A stretch of 21,806 bases of DNA, taken from the IMG/VR virus record IMGVR_UViG_3300047557_000022, positions 1 to 21,806 of that record, one strand, 5' to 3'. Every line of letters begins with the position of its first letter. The first letter of the stretch is position 1. The DNA is from a virus. The position numbers and the translations under genes were made by a program. Shown piece after piece: positions 2,264 to 9,151 of the stretch. The notes under the pieces were generated by a model that saw nothing but the letters and a program-made list of their open reading frames with translations, was not told where the DNA came from and ran no database searches.

Positions 2264-4491
2264 CAATAACCTCTTACGTCACCCGTCTCGCCATTCAGGA
2301 TCACTCGGCCTAACTGATAGTCCCCACCGGCAACATTAGAGACGAACCTTAACCTCAGCTCTCGTCTCTGTTCTTTCATGTCAATCTTGTTTGTCGTGGA
2401 GTCGAACGTATACGGCCCGGTAGTCTTATCTTCAGACTGAGCATAAGGTCTACCAGTAACGTATAGATCCATCGTTCCTTCTAAGAGGAAGTCAGGCTCT
2501 ACCCTCTCTATCCTCAGCCACTTATTCACACCTTCCATAGCCGGTTGAGACGGGCCACCAGACACCCAGCCAAGATCATTCGTCTCAAAGTAGCTCTCAA
2601 TAGCCTCTACGTTCTGGCCGTCAATCGCGTCTACCCCAATTTCATGTTGATAGATCTGAATGCGGTTCGGAGGAAGAGAGAAGGTAAGCGATACAGATCC
2701 AGTCCCGGTAGCCGCTTGAGACATCTCAATCGCTTGTGCGTAGATATCTGTCACAGGAATAGAGAACCCCGACCCGCCGCCAAGAAGGGCGTCATCTACT
2801 TCTAAGACATCCCCTACTTGATACGCAGCACCGCGGTTCACAATCGTTACGGTTGTAACGACTCCACCCGAAACACCGATATCAGCAGTCGCATTAGCGC
2901 CAGATCCCGTAGTAAAAGGGATGTCTGTATACGAACCATCCGCATACCCAGATCCCGGGGTGATTGATCCTAGCGTCTTAATGTTGGAACTCGTAACAGC
3001 AACAACAGAAGTCCCCGTGGGAATATTAGAACCAGAGATAACCTGTCTTAAAGCTACTTGAATGTTGTAGGTGTCTAGGAAGATAAACTCACTTCCTGAA
3101 TTTACGGGCATGGTTTCCGTAAACACCGTAGTGGCAGGCAGCGTATTCCAACTAGCCTCTACAGGATAGGCAAAGACCTGCGAGAAGTATCCAGCAGATC
3201 TCCTAGCTCCTAAAGCCTGCCCAGCGTCATACCAAGTCTGTTCCCGAACGTTATAGATGATGGCATCCGTACACTCGGTCGCATCACCTCTAGGATAAAA
3301 CCACCAGATTTCCCCATATCGAGGAACCTTAGTAACCCAGACCTTCTGTCTCTGGTTGTAGTTCAGGTTGTCAAAGAACCAGTTCTGGTTCATCGAGTTT
3401 GGAATCTCTTTCACGGTTCCGTTATAAAGCAGGAACCTATCAACCCCGCACCAGTAATAGATGCCGTCATACTCAATCACGCTCTGTGACGACATGATCG
3501 ATGTCTGAGAAGAGATGATGTCGTACCGCCAGAAGGTAGGCGTAGCAAAGTTAGCCGTCCCCGGGACACCTAAGTTTGTAGGCGCATAGGACACCCTAAC
3601 TAGGGAATCTAGGCTCCAAAACAACCCAGACGGAGAGTTAGAGCCACCTCGAACCGGAAGCCCTTGTACGATCTTTCCAGTGGCTACGTTGACCGAGTTC
3701 GCATCACTTGATACCCAGTCATTCGTATTACCGGCAGAACAGTTCCTGATAAGCCCGTTGTTGCCGAAGACAAACAGGTAGGGATGAAGCGAAACCACCC
3801 CGCCTGAGACCTCAACGTTATTGTTGAACGTAGCAGTCACAGTCGCCGAAGCGGTCGCATTATTGGACATCGTTACAGTAGTGCCGACAACCGATACCAC
3901 CGTAGTATTCGCAGGAATCCCGGCTCCTGTGATTGTCTGACCCGCTCCGATAAGAGGGTTAGAGACAGCAAGCGTAAGAGTCGGGCTGAGGTTAGTCGTC
4001 GTTACCGAATCGGTAAAGACGCCAATCTGACTCATTGAGGTTCCAGTGATGTTCCCAATGAGTACAGGAGTATTGTTGTCAGAGTCAATCGCCTGAAGGT
4101 TCTGCCCGGGATGAGCTACGATAGTCTGAACCCCAGAGCCTCCAACGTCATAGAACCCGTCAAACTGCCACATATTCAGATCTGAGGCAGTGAAGTTAGA
4201 CAGGGAAAACTCTGCAATCCCCGCTCCAACTCCGTTGTCATCAATCGTCAGAACTTCTAGACCGTTGTTATATCCAGAAAAGATCGACGTAAAAGAGTTC
4301 TGAGCATTCACCCAGATACCTCTAGATGGCCCGATCATCTGATCTGAGATAACACGATATCCCAGCATCTTACGAGGGCGGCCTCTTTGAAACCTTACCC
4401 AACGACCATCGTTGTAGTAAAGCTTGTCAAATAACGTCCCGTCCCTCTGAATGCCGGGTTTCGTATCTAACGCAAAGACTTTCTGCGTCAT
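2263..4491 (-). CDS. Tail nozzle / tubular-B-like protein (P22 gp10 / T7 gp12-like) with inserted domains, 742 aa
   Basis: The N-terminus (FALDTKPGIQRDGTLFD, then GRWVRFQRGRPRKMLGYR) is a pattern I associate with the large nozzle or hub protein of short-tailed phages. Aromatic-rich segments such as YDGIYYWCGVDRFLLYNG and YGEIWWFYPRG look like beta-propeller blades. Family members are usually about 470-550 aa; this one is longer because of two apparent insertions. The first is an Ig-like module at about residues 160-222. The second, about residues 455-603, appears to contain another domain inside it. Without them the core is about 530 aa. The start overlaps the upstream stop by ATGA. The protein would form the distal part of the short tail through which DNA exits. 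The assignment rests on recalled family resemblance and gene order. Confidence 0.75.
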   Translation of the reverse strand: MTQKVFALDTKPGIQRDGTLFDKLYYNDGRWVRFQRGRPRKMLGYRVISDQMIGPSRGIWVNAQNSFTSIFSGYNNGLEVLTIDDNGVGAGIAEFSLSNFTASDLNMWQFDGFYDVGGSGVQTIVAHPGQNLQAIDSDNNTPVLIGNITGTSMSQIGVFTDSVTTTNLSPTLTLAVSNPLIGAGQTITGAGIPANTTVVSVVGTTVTMSNNATASATVTATFNNNVEVSGGVVSLHPYLFVFGNNGLIRNCSAGNTNDWVSSDANSVNVATGKIVQGLPVRGGSNSPSGLFWSLDSLVRVSYAPTNLGVPGTANFATPTFWRYDIISSQTSIMSSQSVIEYDGIYYWCGVDRFLLYNGTVKEIPNSMNQNWFFDNLNYNQRQKVWVTKVPRYGEIWWFYPRGDATECTDAIIYNVREQTWYDAGQALGARRSAGYFSQVFAYPVEASWNTLPATTVFTETMPVNSGSEFIFLDTYNIQVALRQVISGSNIPTGTSVVAVTSSNIKTLGSITPGSGYADGSYTDIPFTTGSGANATADIGVSGGVVTTVTIVNRGAAYQVGDVLEVDDALLGGGSGFSIPVTDIYAQAIEMSQAATGTGSVSLTFSLPPNRIQIYQHEIGVDAIDGQNVEAIESYFETNDLGWVSGGPSQPAMEGVNKWLRIERVEPDFLLEGTMDLYVTGRPYAQSEDKTTGPYTFDSTTNKIDMKEQRRELRLRFVSNVAGGDYQLGRVILNGETGDVRGY

Positions 4492-6373: not shown

Positions 6374-6765
6374 CACCACACCTTTTTCTTAATAGATTCA
6401 GGCTGCGGGACATACTGTTTACCTTGCCGCATCCCATCACGCTTTGCTCGCGTAGTAGCGGCATATTCCGAAGCGGTTAGCTTCTCTCGTGCTGCTTTAG
6501 GTAGATACCGCTCACCCGTAGCCTCAGAACCCTGCGTAGATGGCTTTCCAGATCGTGTACCCCAATCCTCACGAGTCCATCTAGATAATGAATTGTCCGC
6601 TTTTTTTGGCCCTTTGTAACCACCCCCAGAAGCTTTGTACTTCTGAGTAGCTAATTGGGCCTTCCTCGCTGACCATTGACCCGGACTACCCCCCTTCCCA
6701 GAAGCTTTGACTTGAGAAACTATTCTCTTCCACTTCTCAGGATTGGACTTAACCGCGGAGGTCAT
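6373..6765 (-). CDS. Small basic conserved phage protein (DUF5872-like from memory), 130 aa
   Basis: A lysine-rich protein with KASGKGGSPGQWSARKAQLA near residue 25 and a GGGYKGP turn. Further on it has SRWTREDWGTRSGKPS and ATGERYLPKAAREKLTASEY. I recall this 'GGxPGxWSARKAQ ... RWxxEDWxT ... YLPKxA' pattern as a widespread family of unknown function in phages and some other large viruses (I believe DUF5872, not verified). No membrane segment or catalytic motif is visible. The high positive charge would allow binding to nucleic acid or to an acidic protein, but that is inference. The start overlaps the preceding stop (ATGA), and the stop overlaps the next start (TGATG), so translation is probably coupled on both sides. 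Confidence 0.8.
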   Translation of the reverse strand: MTSAVKSNPEKWKRIVSQVKASGKGGSPGQWSARKAQLATQKYKASGGGYKGPKKADNSLSRWTREDWGTRSGKPSTQGSEATGERYLPKAAREKLTASEYAATTRAKRDGMRQGKQYVPQPESIKKKVW

Positions 6766-6983
6766 TTGTCTACCTTGCCATCCAGTTTGTCAAAGATCCT
6801 AGCTAACATTCCCTTGATGTCTGCTATGTCAGACCTGTAGTCGTCTCTAGAGACATACTGAAGGGGCATATCCTGTATCCGATCTTCTATTCGGATGATC
6901 GAGCGCGAAAGGGAGTTGAGAATCCAACCCCCGCACGCGCCCGCGACCCCAAAAGCGATGTTAATCAGGGTCTGTGAATCCAT
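6762..6983 (-). CDS. Small N-terminally anchored membrane protein, 73 aa
   Basis: One hydrophobic N-terminal segment (about residues 5-25, with INIAFGVAGACGGWIL) is followed by a charged, probably helical tail ending IKGMLARIFDKLDGKVDK. The middle 'MPLQYVSRDDYRSDI' resembles, from memory, a conserved small protein of aquatic phages placed near the lysis genes. The architecture (anchor plus helical tail) would suit an accessory lysis factor or a spanin-like protein, but it is short for an inner-membrane spanin and no partner lipoprotein is seen nearby. The ATG shares its A with the TAA of the gene before it (TAATG), and the stop overlaps the next ATG. Confidence 0.75.
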   Translation of the reverse strand: MDSQTLINIAFGVAGACGGWILNSLSRSIIRIEDRIQDMPLQYVSRDDYRSDIADIKGMLARIFDKLDGKVDK

Positions 6984-7318: not shown

Positions 7319-7791
7319 CAAGATTTTGCCATATACATGGCTCTTTCATCTCTTCTTCTTATCACTAAACCCGGTAGAACCTTTCCTGCCGAGAGATTCC
7401 ACTTCTCAAACTCATTAGCCGCGCCTTCAAAGTCACCTCGGTTGTGCTTAGCTCGAAGGGTAGAAGCCTGAAGATTCCCTAGCCCAACGTTGAAAGCGAA
7501 CGAAGTGAGTGCCAGATGGCGAGGGCTAAGATCATCCACAGTACATAGTCGGCGTACCCCCGCCAGAAACCTCGCCAGATCCTGCTGGAGAATGCTGTCC
7601 ACCTCTTCATCCGTCAGTCTCCGATCCCAACCCGCCGGTATAGGTAGCTCAAGTCGTCGATCAAACGGCACGCTAATGTGACGAGGATCGATGACGTGAC
7701 CCACACCGACAGTCCACAGACGAGCAGGGCAACGGTAAGGCTCATGCTTGACTCCTTCGTGATGCCGAAGCATCTTGATTAGATCGTTCAC
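7318..7791 (-). CDS. Endolysin, T4-lysozyme-type muramidase (GH24), 157 aa
   Basis: The protein would cleave the beta-1,4 bond between N-acetylmuramic acid and N-acetylglucosamine in peptidoglycan. The N-terminus holds the family motif: Glu12, then eight residues, Cys21, then five residues, Thr27, within HHEGVKHEPYRCPARLWTVG followed by VGH. Many phage GH24 enzymes have Cys rather than Asp at the second position, so it is probably active. The C-terminal part has SFAFNVGLGNLQASTLRAKH and a RRRDERAMY segment typical of the family. No signal peptide is seen, so export should depend on the holin. The start is GTG at 7791, overlapping the holin stop as GTGA; the next ATG would leave only five residues before Glu12. 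Confidence 0.93.
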   Translation of the reverse strand: MNDLIKMLRHHEGVKHEPYRCPARLWTVGVGHVIDPRHISVPFDRRLELPIPAGWDRRLTDEEVDSILQQDLARFLAGVRRLCTVDDLSPRHLALTSFAFNVGLGNLQASTLRAKHNRGDFEGAANEFEKWNLSAGKVLPGLVIRRRDERAMYMAKS

Positions 7792-8294
7792 TTCTTGCTA
7801 AACGCCTGAGATCCAAACCAGAAACTGATGATCGACGCCCAGATGATCTGAGTGTCCGAATCCCACAAGTTCGCAATCACCTCGGCAAACGGCGTCCCAA
7901 GATGCCACGCATACGCGGCTCCAAAGACGTTAATGAAGCAGAGCAGGGCGAACATCCCGTAGGTGATCACAGGTCTTACTAGAGCGCGGGCGTTGATCAC
8001 CCACCTCGAAGCACCTTCACCGATAGCGATATCGTGAGCGTACAGGGCTTGTTTTTCCTGTAGTGCAATCTGCTGGGTCGAGACTTCAGCGTTGATCGTC
8101 AGTTGATCCGTTCTGATCTCTTCGACTCGCGCCTGTGCCTCGAACCCGGCCTTTCTGAGTTCTAGTTCCCGCTCGATCTGCATCTGAGCAAGGGTGATCT
8201 CGTGCTTCTTATCCGACCGATCTTGGAAGAAGTCAAGGAGCTTTGGAAGTCCTCCGGCGAGAAAGGAAAGCAGGGTCGTCAGAAGAGTGATCAT
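7788..8294 (-). CDS. Holin, three-TM type (Holin_3TMs-like), 168 aa
   Basis: Likely membrane segments are residues 2-20 (TLLTTLLSFLAGGLPKLLDF), 108-130 and 146-162. Between the first and second lies a charged coiled-coil stretch (about 31-85, EITLAQMQIERELELRKAGF). The C-terminal half has NARALVRPVITYGMFALLCF and ends FWFGSQAFSKK, which match my recollection of the three-TM phage holin family. It would form lesions in the inner membrane and release the endolysin. It sits directly before the endolysin (GTGA overlap) and directly after a 24-aa membrane peptide (ATGA overlap), a classic lysis cassette. Confidence 0.85.
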   Translation of the reverse strand: MITLLTTLLSFLAGGLPKLLDFFQDRSDKKHEITLAQMQIERELELRKAGFEAQARVEEIRTDQLTINAEVSTQQIALQEKQALYAHDIAIGEGASRWVINARALVRPVITYGMFALLCFINVFGAAYAWHLGTPFAEVIANLWDSDTQIIWASIISFWFGSQAFSKK

Positions 8295-8365
8295 TTACTG
8301 ATCTCCGCAAGAGTAATCATCAAGGCCGCCACCATGACCATAATGATGGCAACCAAATAGTTCAT
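8291..8365 (-). CDS. 24-aa single-TM peptide in the lysis cassette
   Basis: An ATG at 8365 overlaps the stop of the two-TM gene (ATGA), and its TGA overlaps the ATG of the holin (ATGA). The peptide starts MNYLVAIIMVMVAALMITLA and ends EISK. It is almost entirely one hydrophobic helix with a short charged C-terminus. The double four-base overlap is strong evidence of translation, because without this frame there would be an unusual 67-nt gap between coupled genes. It could be an antiholin, a holin regulator or a pinholin-like peptide; none can be chosen from sequence alone. Confidence 0.6.
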   Translation of the reverse strand: MNYLVAIIMVMVAALMITLAEISK

Positions 8366-8823
8366 TTCACCGCCGTCACCTGATCTTCGCCTTTGGTAAC
8401 CGTTACCCGGCCCTCAGTAACGTCAACCTTCATCGGCAACTCTTTACGGTCGAGCTTATCCAGACGTTCAATGAGTGACTTGATCACCTCAAACTCCGGC
8501 TTCTCCTGCTTAGGATTCGCCCCGGCGATACCGTTCAGCATTGAGATCAGGGCAGTTAAAGCTGCACCCAATAGACCCATGACGGCGGCGATCTTCTCGT
8601 TCTCAAGGACGATAGAAGCGCCCACCCCGATCACTACGATCAGGGTGATATAGAACAGCCCCTGCTTGCCGATAGCCTTACCGGCTACGTCTTTAGCAGA
8701 GGACTCCGCTTCCAGCCTCTGTAGCTCGGCCTTGGCTTGAGCCTTCAGCATACGGATTTCGTGTCTCACCGGGATATCTCGGCGAGCGTAAGCATCAGCA
8801 CGACTATCAGCGTCATCAGCCAT
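8362..8823 (-). CDS. Two-TM membrane protein, possible holin or antiholin, 153 aa
   Basis: I chose the ATG at 8823, one base after the TAA of the upstream gene; an in-frame GTG three codons earlier would overlap that gene. The N-terminal third is a charged, probably helical cytoplasmic region. Membrane segments lie at about 55-73 (GLFYITLIVVIGVGASIVL) and 78-100 (IAAVMGLLGAALTALISMLN). A charged C-terminal tail follows with helical residues around FEVIKSLIERLDKLDRKELP. Two TM segments beside a holin and endolysin suggest a second holin, an antiholin or another lysis-timing factor. I do not recognise the family with certainty. Confidence 0.75.
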   Translation of the reverse strand: MADDADSRADAYARRDIPVRHEIRMLKAQAKAELQRLEAESSAKDVAGKAIGKQGLFYITLIVVIGVGASIVLENEKIAAVMGLLGAALTALISMLNGIAGANPKQEKPEFEVIKSLIERLDKLDRKELPMKVDVTEGRVTVTKGEDQVTAVK

Positions 8824-8824
8824 A

Positions 8825-9151
8825 TTAGGCACTTACCCACGGCGGTGCGAGTGAAACCGTTACAGGGTGCTTTTGGAGTTCCAGTTGGGCTTGAACTGCG
8901 GCTTCCGTGGCCGCACGATCAACTCCGTTCGCCCAGATCCATCCCAACACTTCGTCTTGCGTGAGTTGGTCGTAAGGGACAAAGCTAGCCGGGTTCGGGC
9001 CGGGAACCGAGCAGGTTGAGTAGACAGAGGCAGAGTAGGTCTTGTCACCATCTACTTCGGTGGCAGAACACCGCCAGTGAGCACAATAGACAACATCACT
9101 GAGTCCGTCTTCTGAGACTTTGCAATCGAGACTTGAGACTTCCCAGTTCAT
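8825..9151 (-). CDS. Conserved small phage protein, 108 aa (DUF7936-like from memory)
   Basis: A soluble acidic protein that begins MNWEVSSLDCKVSEDGLSDV and has VVYCAHWRCSATE, then FVPYDQLTQDEVLGWIW, and ends near PWVSA. I recall this 'GLSDVVxxAHWR ... PYxxLTxxxVLGW' pattern as a family found beside tail-fibre genes in aquatic phages, without an assigned function. It follows the S74 fibre gene with a 2-nt gap and has a strong AAGGAG ribosome-binding site, so it may act on or with the fibre, for example as an assembly factor. That role is inferred from position only. It has four Cys residues but no clear zinc motif. Confidence 0.75.
   Translation of the reverse strand: MNWEVSSLDCKVSEDGLSDVVYCAHWRCSATEVDGDKTYSASVYSTCSVPGPNPASFVPYDQLTQDEVLGWIWANGVDRAATEAAVQAQLELQKHPVTVSLAPPWVSA

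Follow-up and report, generated by a model that had tools for sequence, protein, structure and literature searches.

A family of tiny genes for predicted single-span membrane peptides, mobile among positions in tailed-phage lysis cassettes

Introduction

Does a frame of only 24 codons, squeezed between the genes of two larger membrane proteins in a phage lysis cassette, encode a peptide, and what might such a peptide do there? The question arises from a 21,806-nucleotide stretch of DNA of a phage with an aquatic bacterial host (IMG/VR record IMGVR_UViG_3300047557_000022), which was analysed at its full length and is called the window in the following. An initial annotation, made from the letters alone, had described the frame as fitting exactly between a two-TM protein gene and a holin gene with ATGA overlaps on both sides, and as encoding one hydrophobic helix that is easily missed by gene callers and may regulate holin triggering. 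We followed up these claims with loci collected from IMG/VR contigs, which were anchored on the downstream 168-aa protein (H168), the two-TM protein (T134), a 150-aa protein (S150), a C-terminal-TM protein with a weak match to phrog_32327 (R167) and a 96-aa two-TM protein (X96).

Results

The features of the region are collected in Table 1. The 24-codon frame (copy B) does lie between the T134 and H168 genes with an ATGA overlap at each end, and the single hydrophobic helix is likewise borne out, as the predicted transmembrane segment has a hydropathy of 2.9 over 17 residues.

Table 1. Features of the peptide-containing lysis cassette in the window.
Feature	Position	Strand	Basis and remarks
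73-aa TM and charged protein, phrog_462 'lipoprotein'	6762-6983	(-)	downstream of the lysozyme gene; spanin candidate
Phage lysozyme (endolysin), Phage_lysozyme PF00959	7318-7791	(-)	family match; overlaps H168
H168, 168-aa protein, phrog_6637 (annotated as of unknown function), putative holin	7788-8294	(-)	long helix and two or three membrane helices
Peptide copy B, MNYLVAIIMVMVAALMITLAEISK, 24 aa, single TM	8291-8365	(-)	ATG start; sequence, relatives, selection
ATGA overlap, peptide B stop / H168 start	8291-8294	(-)	sequence
GGAG, Shine-Dalgarno-like site for the H168 gene	8303-8306	(-)	in the peptide B codons for Ala-Glu; 8 nt ahead of ATG
ATGA overlap, T134 stop / peptide B start	8362-8365	(-)	sequence
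T134, two-TM protein, 135 aa from GTG 8769	8362-8769	(-)	very conserved; holin-like by architecture only
GTGA overlap, peptide A stop / probable true GTG start of T134	8766-8769	(-)	sequence, pN/pS, relatives
Peptide copy A, MGKCLIWLMTLIVVLMLTLAEISR, 24-aa frame	8766-8840	(-)	GTG start; pN/pS; relatives L008, L089, L090, L094, L099, L104, L279
108-aa DUF7936 protein	8825-9151	(-)	family match; upstream of peptide A, 16-nt overlap

The lysozyme gene is found two genes downstream of copy B, and an S74 tail fibre gene lies upstream of the peptide genes, beyond T134 and the DUF7936 gene. In relatives, the peptide is also found in cassette context, flanked on one side by the tail fibre/DUF7936 genes and on the other by membrane protein genes that cluster with an endolysin gene. 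In L088- and L407-type cassettes it stands alongside H135, a holin-family protein (GTA_holin_3TM, PF11351/phrog_3427), which is a neighbour of the peptide and not the peptide itself. H168 gave no holin-family match above threshold; against PF11351, only 2/32 members matched, sporadically and under the curated cut-off (best E 0.21), and a profile comparison of H168 with H135 was negative for holin homology with a probability of 7.9%. AlphaFold models of H168 and T134 were of low confidence (pTM 0.33-0.34), that of H168 showing a long helix followed by membrane helices, and the Foldseek matches obtained with the neighbour models were uninformative. The assignment of H168 as a putative holin is thus based on its position and architecture.

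By our estimate, 24 open codons arise by chance in about 1 in 3 cases, so that the open frame is weak evidence by itself, and it is the comparative data that lift copy B above chance. We obtained 66 distinct relatives over the last 22 codons, two of which represent the C-terminal ends of a longer frame of 53 aa, with the family consensus M-[NK]-Y/F ... hydrophobic ... M(-9)-x-x-L(-6)-A(-5)-[E>G,R,K,D]-[IV]-[SA]-x. Leu at -6 is present in 66/66 relatives and Ala at -5 in 65/66, where the conservation is partly ascertainment, as the harvest demanded residues -6 to -2. Independent of this ascertainment are the use of all six Leu and four Ala codons at these positions as well as Met at -9, which is found in 63/66 relatives although it was no search criterion. 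Furthermore, the intervals of 47-71 nt between R167 and the next gene, which were compiled with no motif filter applied, are open and have LA[E/G/D]x as their end. A collection-wide pattern search for the peptide returned mostly chance matches. The Glu residue is changed to Gly in L405 and L406 (LAGISQ), as compared to LAEISQ in the near-identical relative L407.

Across the 66 relatives, pN/pS is 0.60 in the peptide frame, while the other two frames give 0.78 and 1.84; in the closest clade the values are 0.40 versus 0.98 and 2.75. Neutral simulations (n=200), which were run on a rough tree estimated from the 66-nt sequences, gave 0.92+/-0.05, and 0/200 were as low as 0.60. The mean hydropathy across the family is 2.69 compared to a simulated neutral maximum of 1.85; judged by this margin, hydropathy is under selection across the peptide family. 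None of the indels observed (-24 nt in L366, -12 nt in L090 and +21 nt in L015) breaks the frame, and stop codons or frameshifts at the same place, named at the outset as what would speak against a coding role, were absent from the relatives. With selection in the peptide frame, synonymous change at conserved residues and in-frame indels, copy B is almost certainly a genuine coding gene.

The view that such frames are easily missed by gene callers is supported. The initial annotation had itself overlooked a second one in the window. Copy A shares 10/24 positions with copy B (42%), including the end LAEIS, and occupies the region in which the T134 ORF had been listed as beginning, at 8832, with a further ATG at 8823. 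Upstream of GTG 8769, seven distinct copy-A sequences gave a pN/pS of 0.50 in the peptide frame versus 1.65 in the T134-extension frame. In relatives without copy A, T134 starts 2-6 residues ahead of a conserved E-I-x-x-L-K motif, and several of them carry GTG or ATG where the window has GTG 8769. Based on the pN/pS values and these start positions, the true start of T134 is probably GTG 8769 rather than the listed 8832, with 8766-8840 encoding peptide A. The long N-terminus of T134 (MADDAD...) was rejected as the main coding frame on account of its pN/pS; its ATG is conserved all the same, and a longer form of T134 may be made from there.

Among the loci read, two 24-aa copies flanking T134 occur only in the window. 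From ~9200 to 8750 the window matches the L090/L008 lineage and from ~8740 to 7334 the L082/L003 lineage, each of which has one peptide copy. On this pattern of matches, two cassette lineages have recombined in the window, and a crossover near the T134 start united both copies. An origin by tandem duplication was rejected in view of the lineage switch near 8750.

The position of the peptide gene varies between cassettes. It precedes H168 in the window and in L002-L005, precedes T134 as copy A, and lies between R167 and S150 in L006 and L009. Counted over distinct starts, it is found ahead of H162 in 26/49 cases and ahead of X96 in 22/68, but ahead of H168 in only 6/92; as the peptide is missing from many cassettes that carry the same H168, lysis does not require it. 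The peptide gene can be followed by H168, H162, S150, T134, X96 or the 53-aa frame, which amounts to at least five different proteins, and in L238, L241 and L293 copy A is still present while T134 is down to nine codons. In other cassettes the peptide is cleanly absent: in L012, R167 overlaps H168 directly by ATGA, and an ATGA overlap of the upstream gene with the 168-aa gene without the peptide is likewise seen in L414, so that coupling is not the special job of the peptide. Where the peptide is present, its junctions are ATGA, GTGA, TGATG or TAATG, so that the coupling geometry survives when the peptide is gained or lost. Judging from these placements, the peptide gene is mobile among lysis-cassette positions.

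Further short frames were seen at or near these positions. In L088 and L091, the 53-aa frame (2840-3001; charged N-terminal helix and TM) follows a 23-aa copy and ends in LAEIDW, possibly as a longer family member or by convergence of its end. Upstream of S150, L294, L309, L310 and L312 have unrelated-looking short single-TM frames (e.g. MNEDDKDVAALGFIVAVVGF...) in the peptide slot. In L413, an apparent deletion at ~3450-3500 joins R167 and the peptide region with truncation of both, a natural case of loss.

Discussion

We tentatively propose, at a little under even chances, that the family, shown above to belong to tailed-phage lysis cassettes, comprises inner-membrane peptides of about 23-24 residues with a single span which tune the larger lysis membrane proteins. 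Made by ribosome handover over ATGA, GTGA or TGATG junctions in step with its neighbours, the peptide would insert into the host inner membrane and pack against H168 or the proteins that take its place, possibly also against T134, and this packing would tune when or how efficiently the larger proteins trigger. The regulation of a holin, as suggested by the initial annotation, is held with the same reserve. The lack of a constant next gene across cassettes weakens the case for a specific partner, and the putative status of H168 as a holin weakens that for a tuner of a holin proper. Somewhat unlikely, in our judgement, is the farther-reaching reading as a plug-in lysis regulator, in which a ~72-bp gene with ATGA junctions is dropped by recombination before different lysis membrane proteins with the coupling kept; if it holds true, phages re-tune lysis by gain, loss or doubling of one tiny helix.

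Less probable again is a peptide that is membrane-active itself, as a pinholin-like or type-I-toxin-like helix that oligomerises, collapses the membrane potential and aids lysis without a partner. Such a self-sufficient agent would fit the absence of a fixed neighbour, and in size and composition the peptide is like the small type I toxins IbsC and TisB, which have 19-29 residues and one hydrophobic helix and depolarise the inner membrane (PMC8309996), a precedent that keeps the mini-holin idea alive. This resemblance is physical only, however. Unlike the toxins, the peptide is encoded in a phage operon with coupled overlaps and has a conserved L-A-x-[IV] end. The strictness of the L-A motif at the C-terminus points to a specific contact and not just to hydrophobicity in general, and the cassette never lacks other membrane proteins.

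We rate lower still a moron-like membrane peptide with a role outside lysis, such as the exclusion of superinfecting phages or an effect on a membrane complex of the host, that sits in the cassette for late expression. Among small bacterial proteins with a single TM helix, many act as modulators of membrane complexes in the host, and the patchy distribution of the peptide and its movement between sites would suit such a role. In the loci read, however, no copy lies outside the cluster from fibre to endolysin, although the use of cassette genes as search anchors biases this result.

That the frame acts mainly as RNA, as a coupling leader whose Shine-Dalgarno site delivers ribosomes to the next gene with the peptide as a by-product, we consider improbable. 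In most copies, the Ala-Glu codons (GCG-GAG) do place GGAG at Shine-Dalgarno distance, 8 nt ahead of the next ATG, and matches of at least 4 nt are found at 52/67 junctions versus 37% of control windows. Where Glu is replaced by Gly, Arg or Lys, the codons stay purine-rich, so that part of the conservation at -4 is probably exerted at the RNA level. On the other hand, LAE or LAD is kept where the codons spoil the site, as in copy A (GCC-GAG, GCG-GAA), L009/L283 (GCA-GAA) and L088 (GCT-GAT), Leu at -6 is invariant as a residue through six codons, selection is strong also outside the last six codons (0.35), and L012 couples its genes directly. A pure Shine-Dalgarno leader as the sole explanation was rejected on the retained LAE/LAD residues and the selection on the peptide, and selection appears to act at both the RNA and the peptide level. 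A mere chance frame, finally, is left with a negligible probability: a stretch of 24 codons between genes may lack a stop by chance, but selection is confined to the peptide frame, residues are conserved through synonymous change and at several sites, and indels stay in frame.

Few lysis-cassette genes of phages for which the sequence gives evidence of selection would be as small as the peptide gene. It illustrates how genes can be shuffled within lysis cassettes by way of ATGA junctions while the coupling geometry is kept, and natural cassettes with zero, one or two copies before the same downstream gene represent a simple test system.

The family is outside every family model searched: comparison with Pfam, PHROG and NCBIfam models gave no match, to holin and antiholin families included. 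Among isolated phages, tblastn with two peptides gave no match, where low-complexity filtering may mask such queries, and the peptide was present in none of the isolated-phage loci read. A spanin (o-spanin lipoprotein) was rejected as there is no lipobox Cys; Cys is lacking in copy B, occurs only at position 4 in copy A and is absent from most relatives. Small phage gene families have been predicted at scale (Fremin et al. 2022, as cited in PMC11323111), and going by that citation these are overlooked tiny phage genes like the peptide, whose family such large-scale catalogues could contain. The nearest functional precedent would be, by analogy, LysF1b of the F1 mycobacteriophages, a single-TMD holin-like protein whose deletion alters lysis timing and efficiency (PMC13056207). 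LysF1b differs from the peptide in its N-terminal TMD with a cytoplasmic part, in its hosts and in having a known function; like the peptide, it is a single-span protein encoded in the lysis cassette, where it adjoins a two-TM holin-like protein (PMC13056207).
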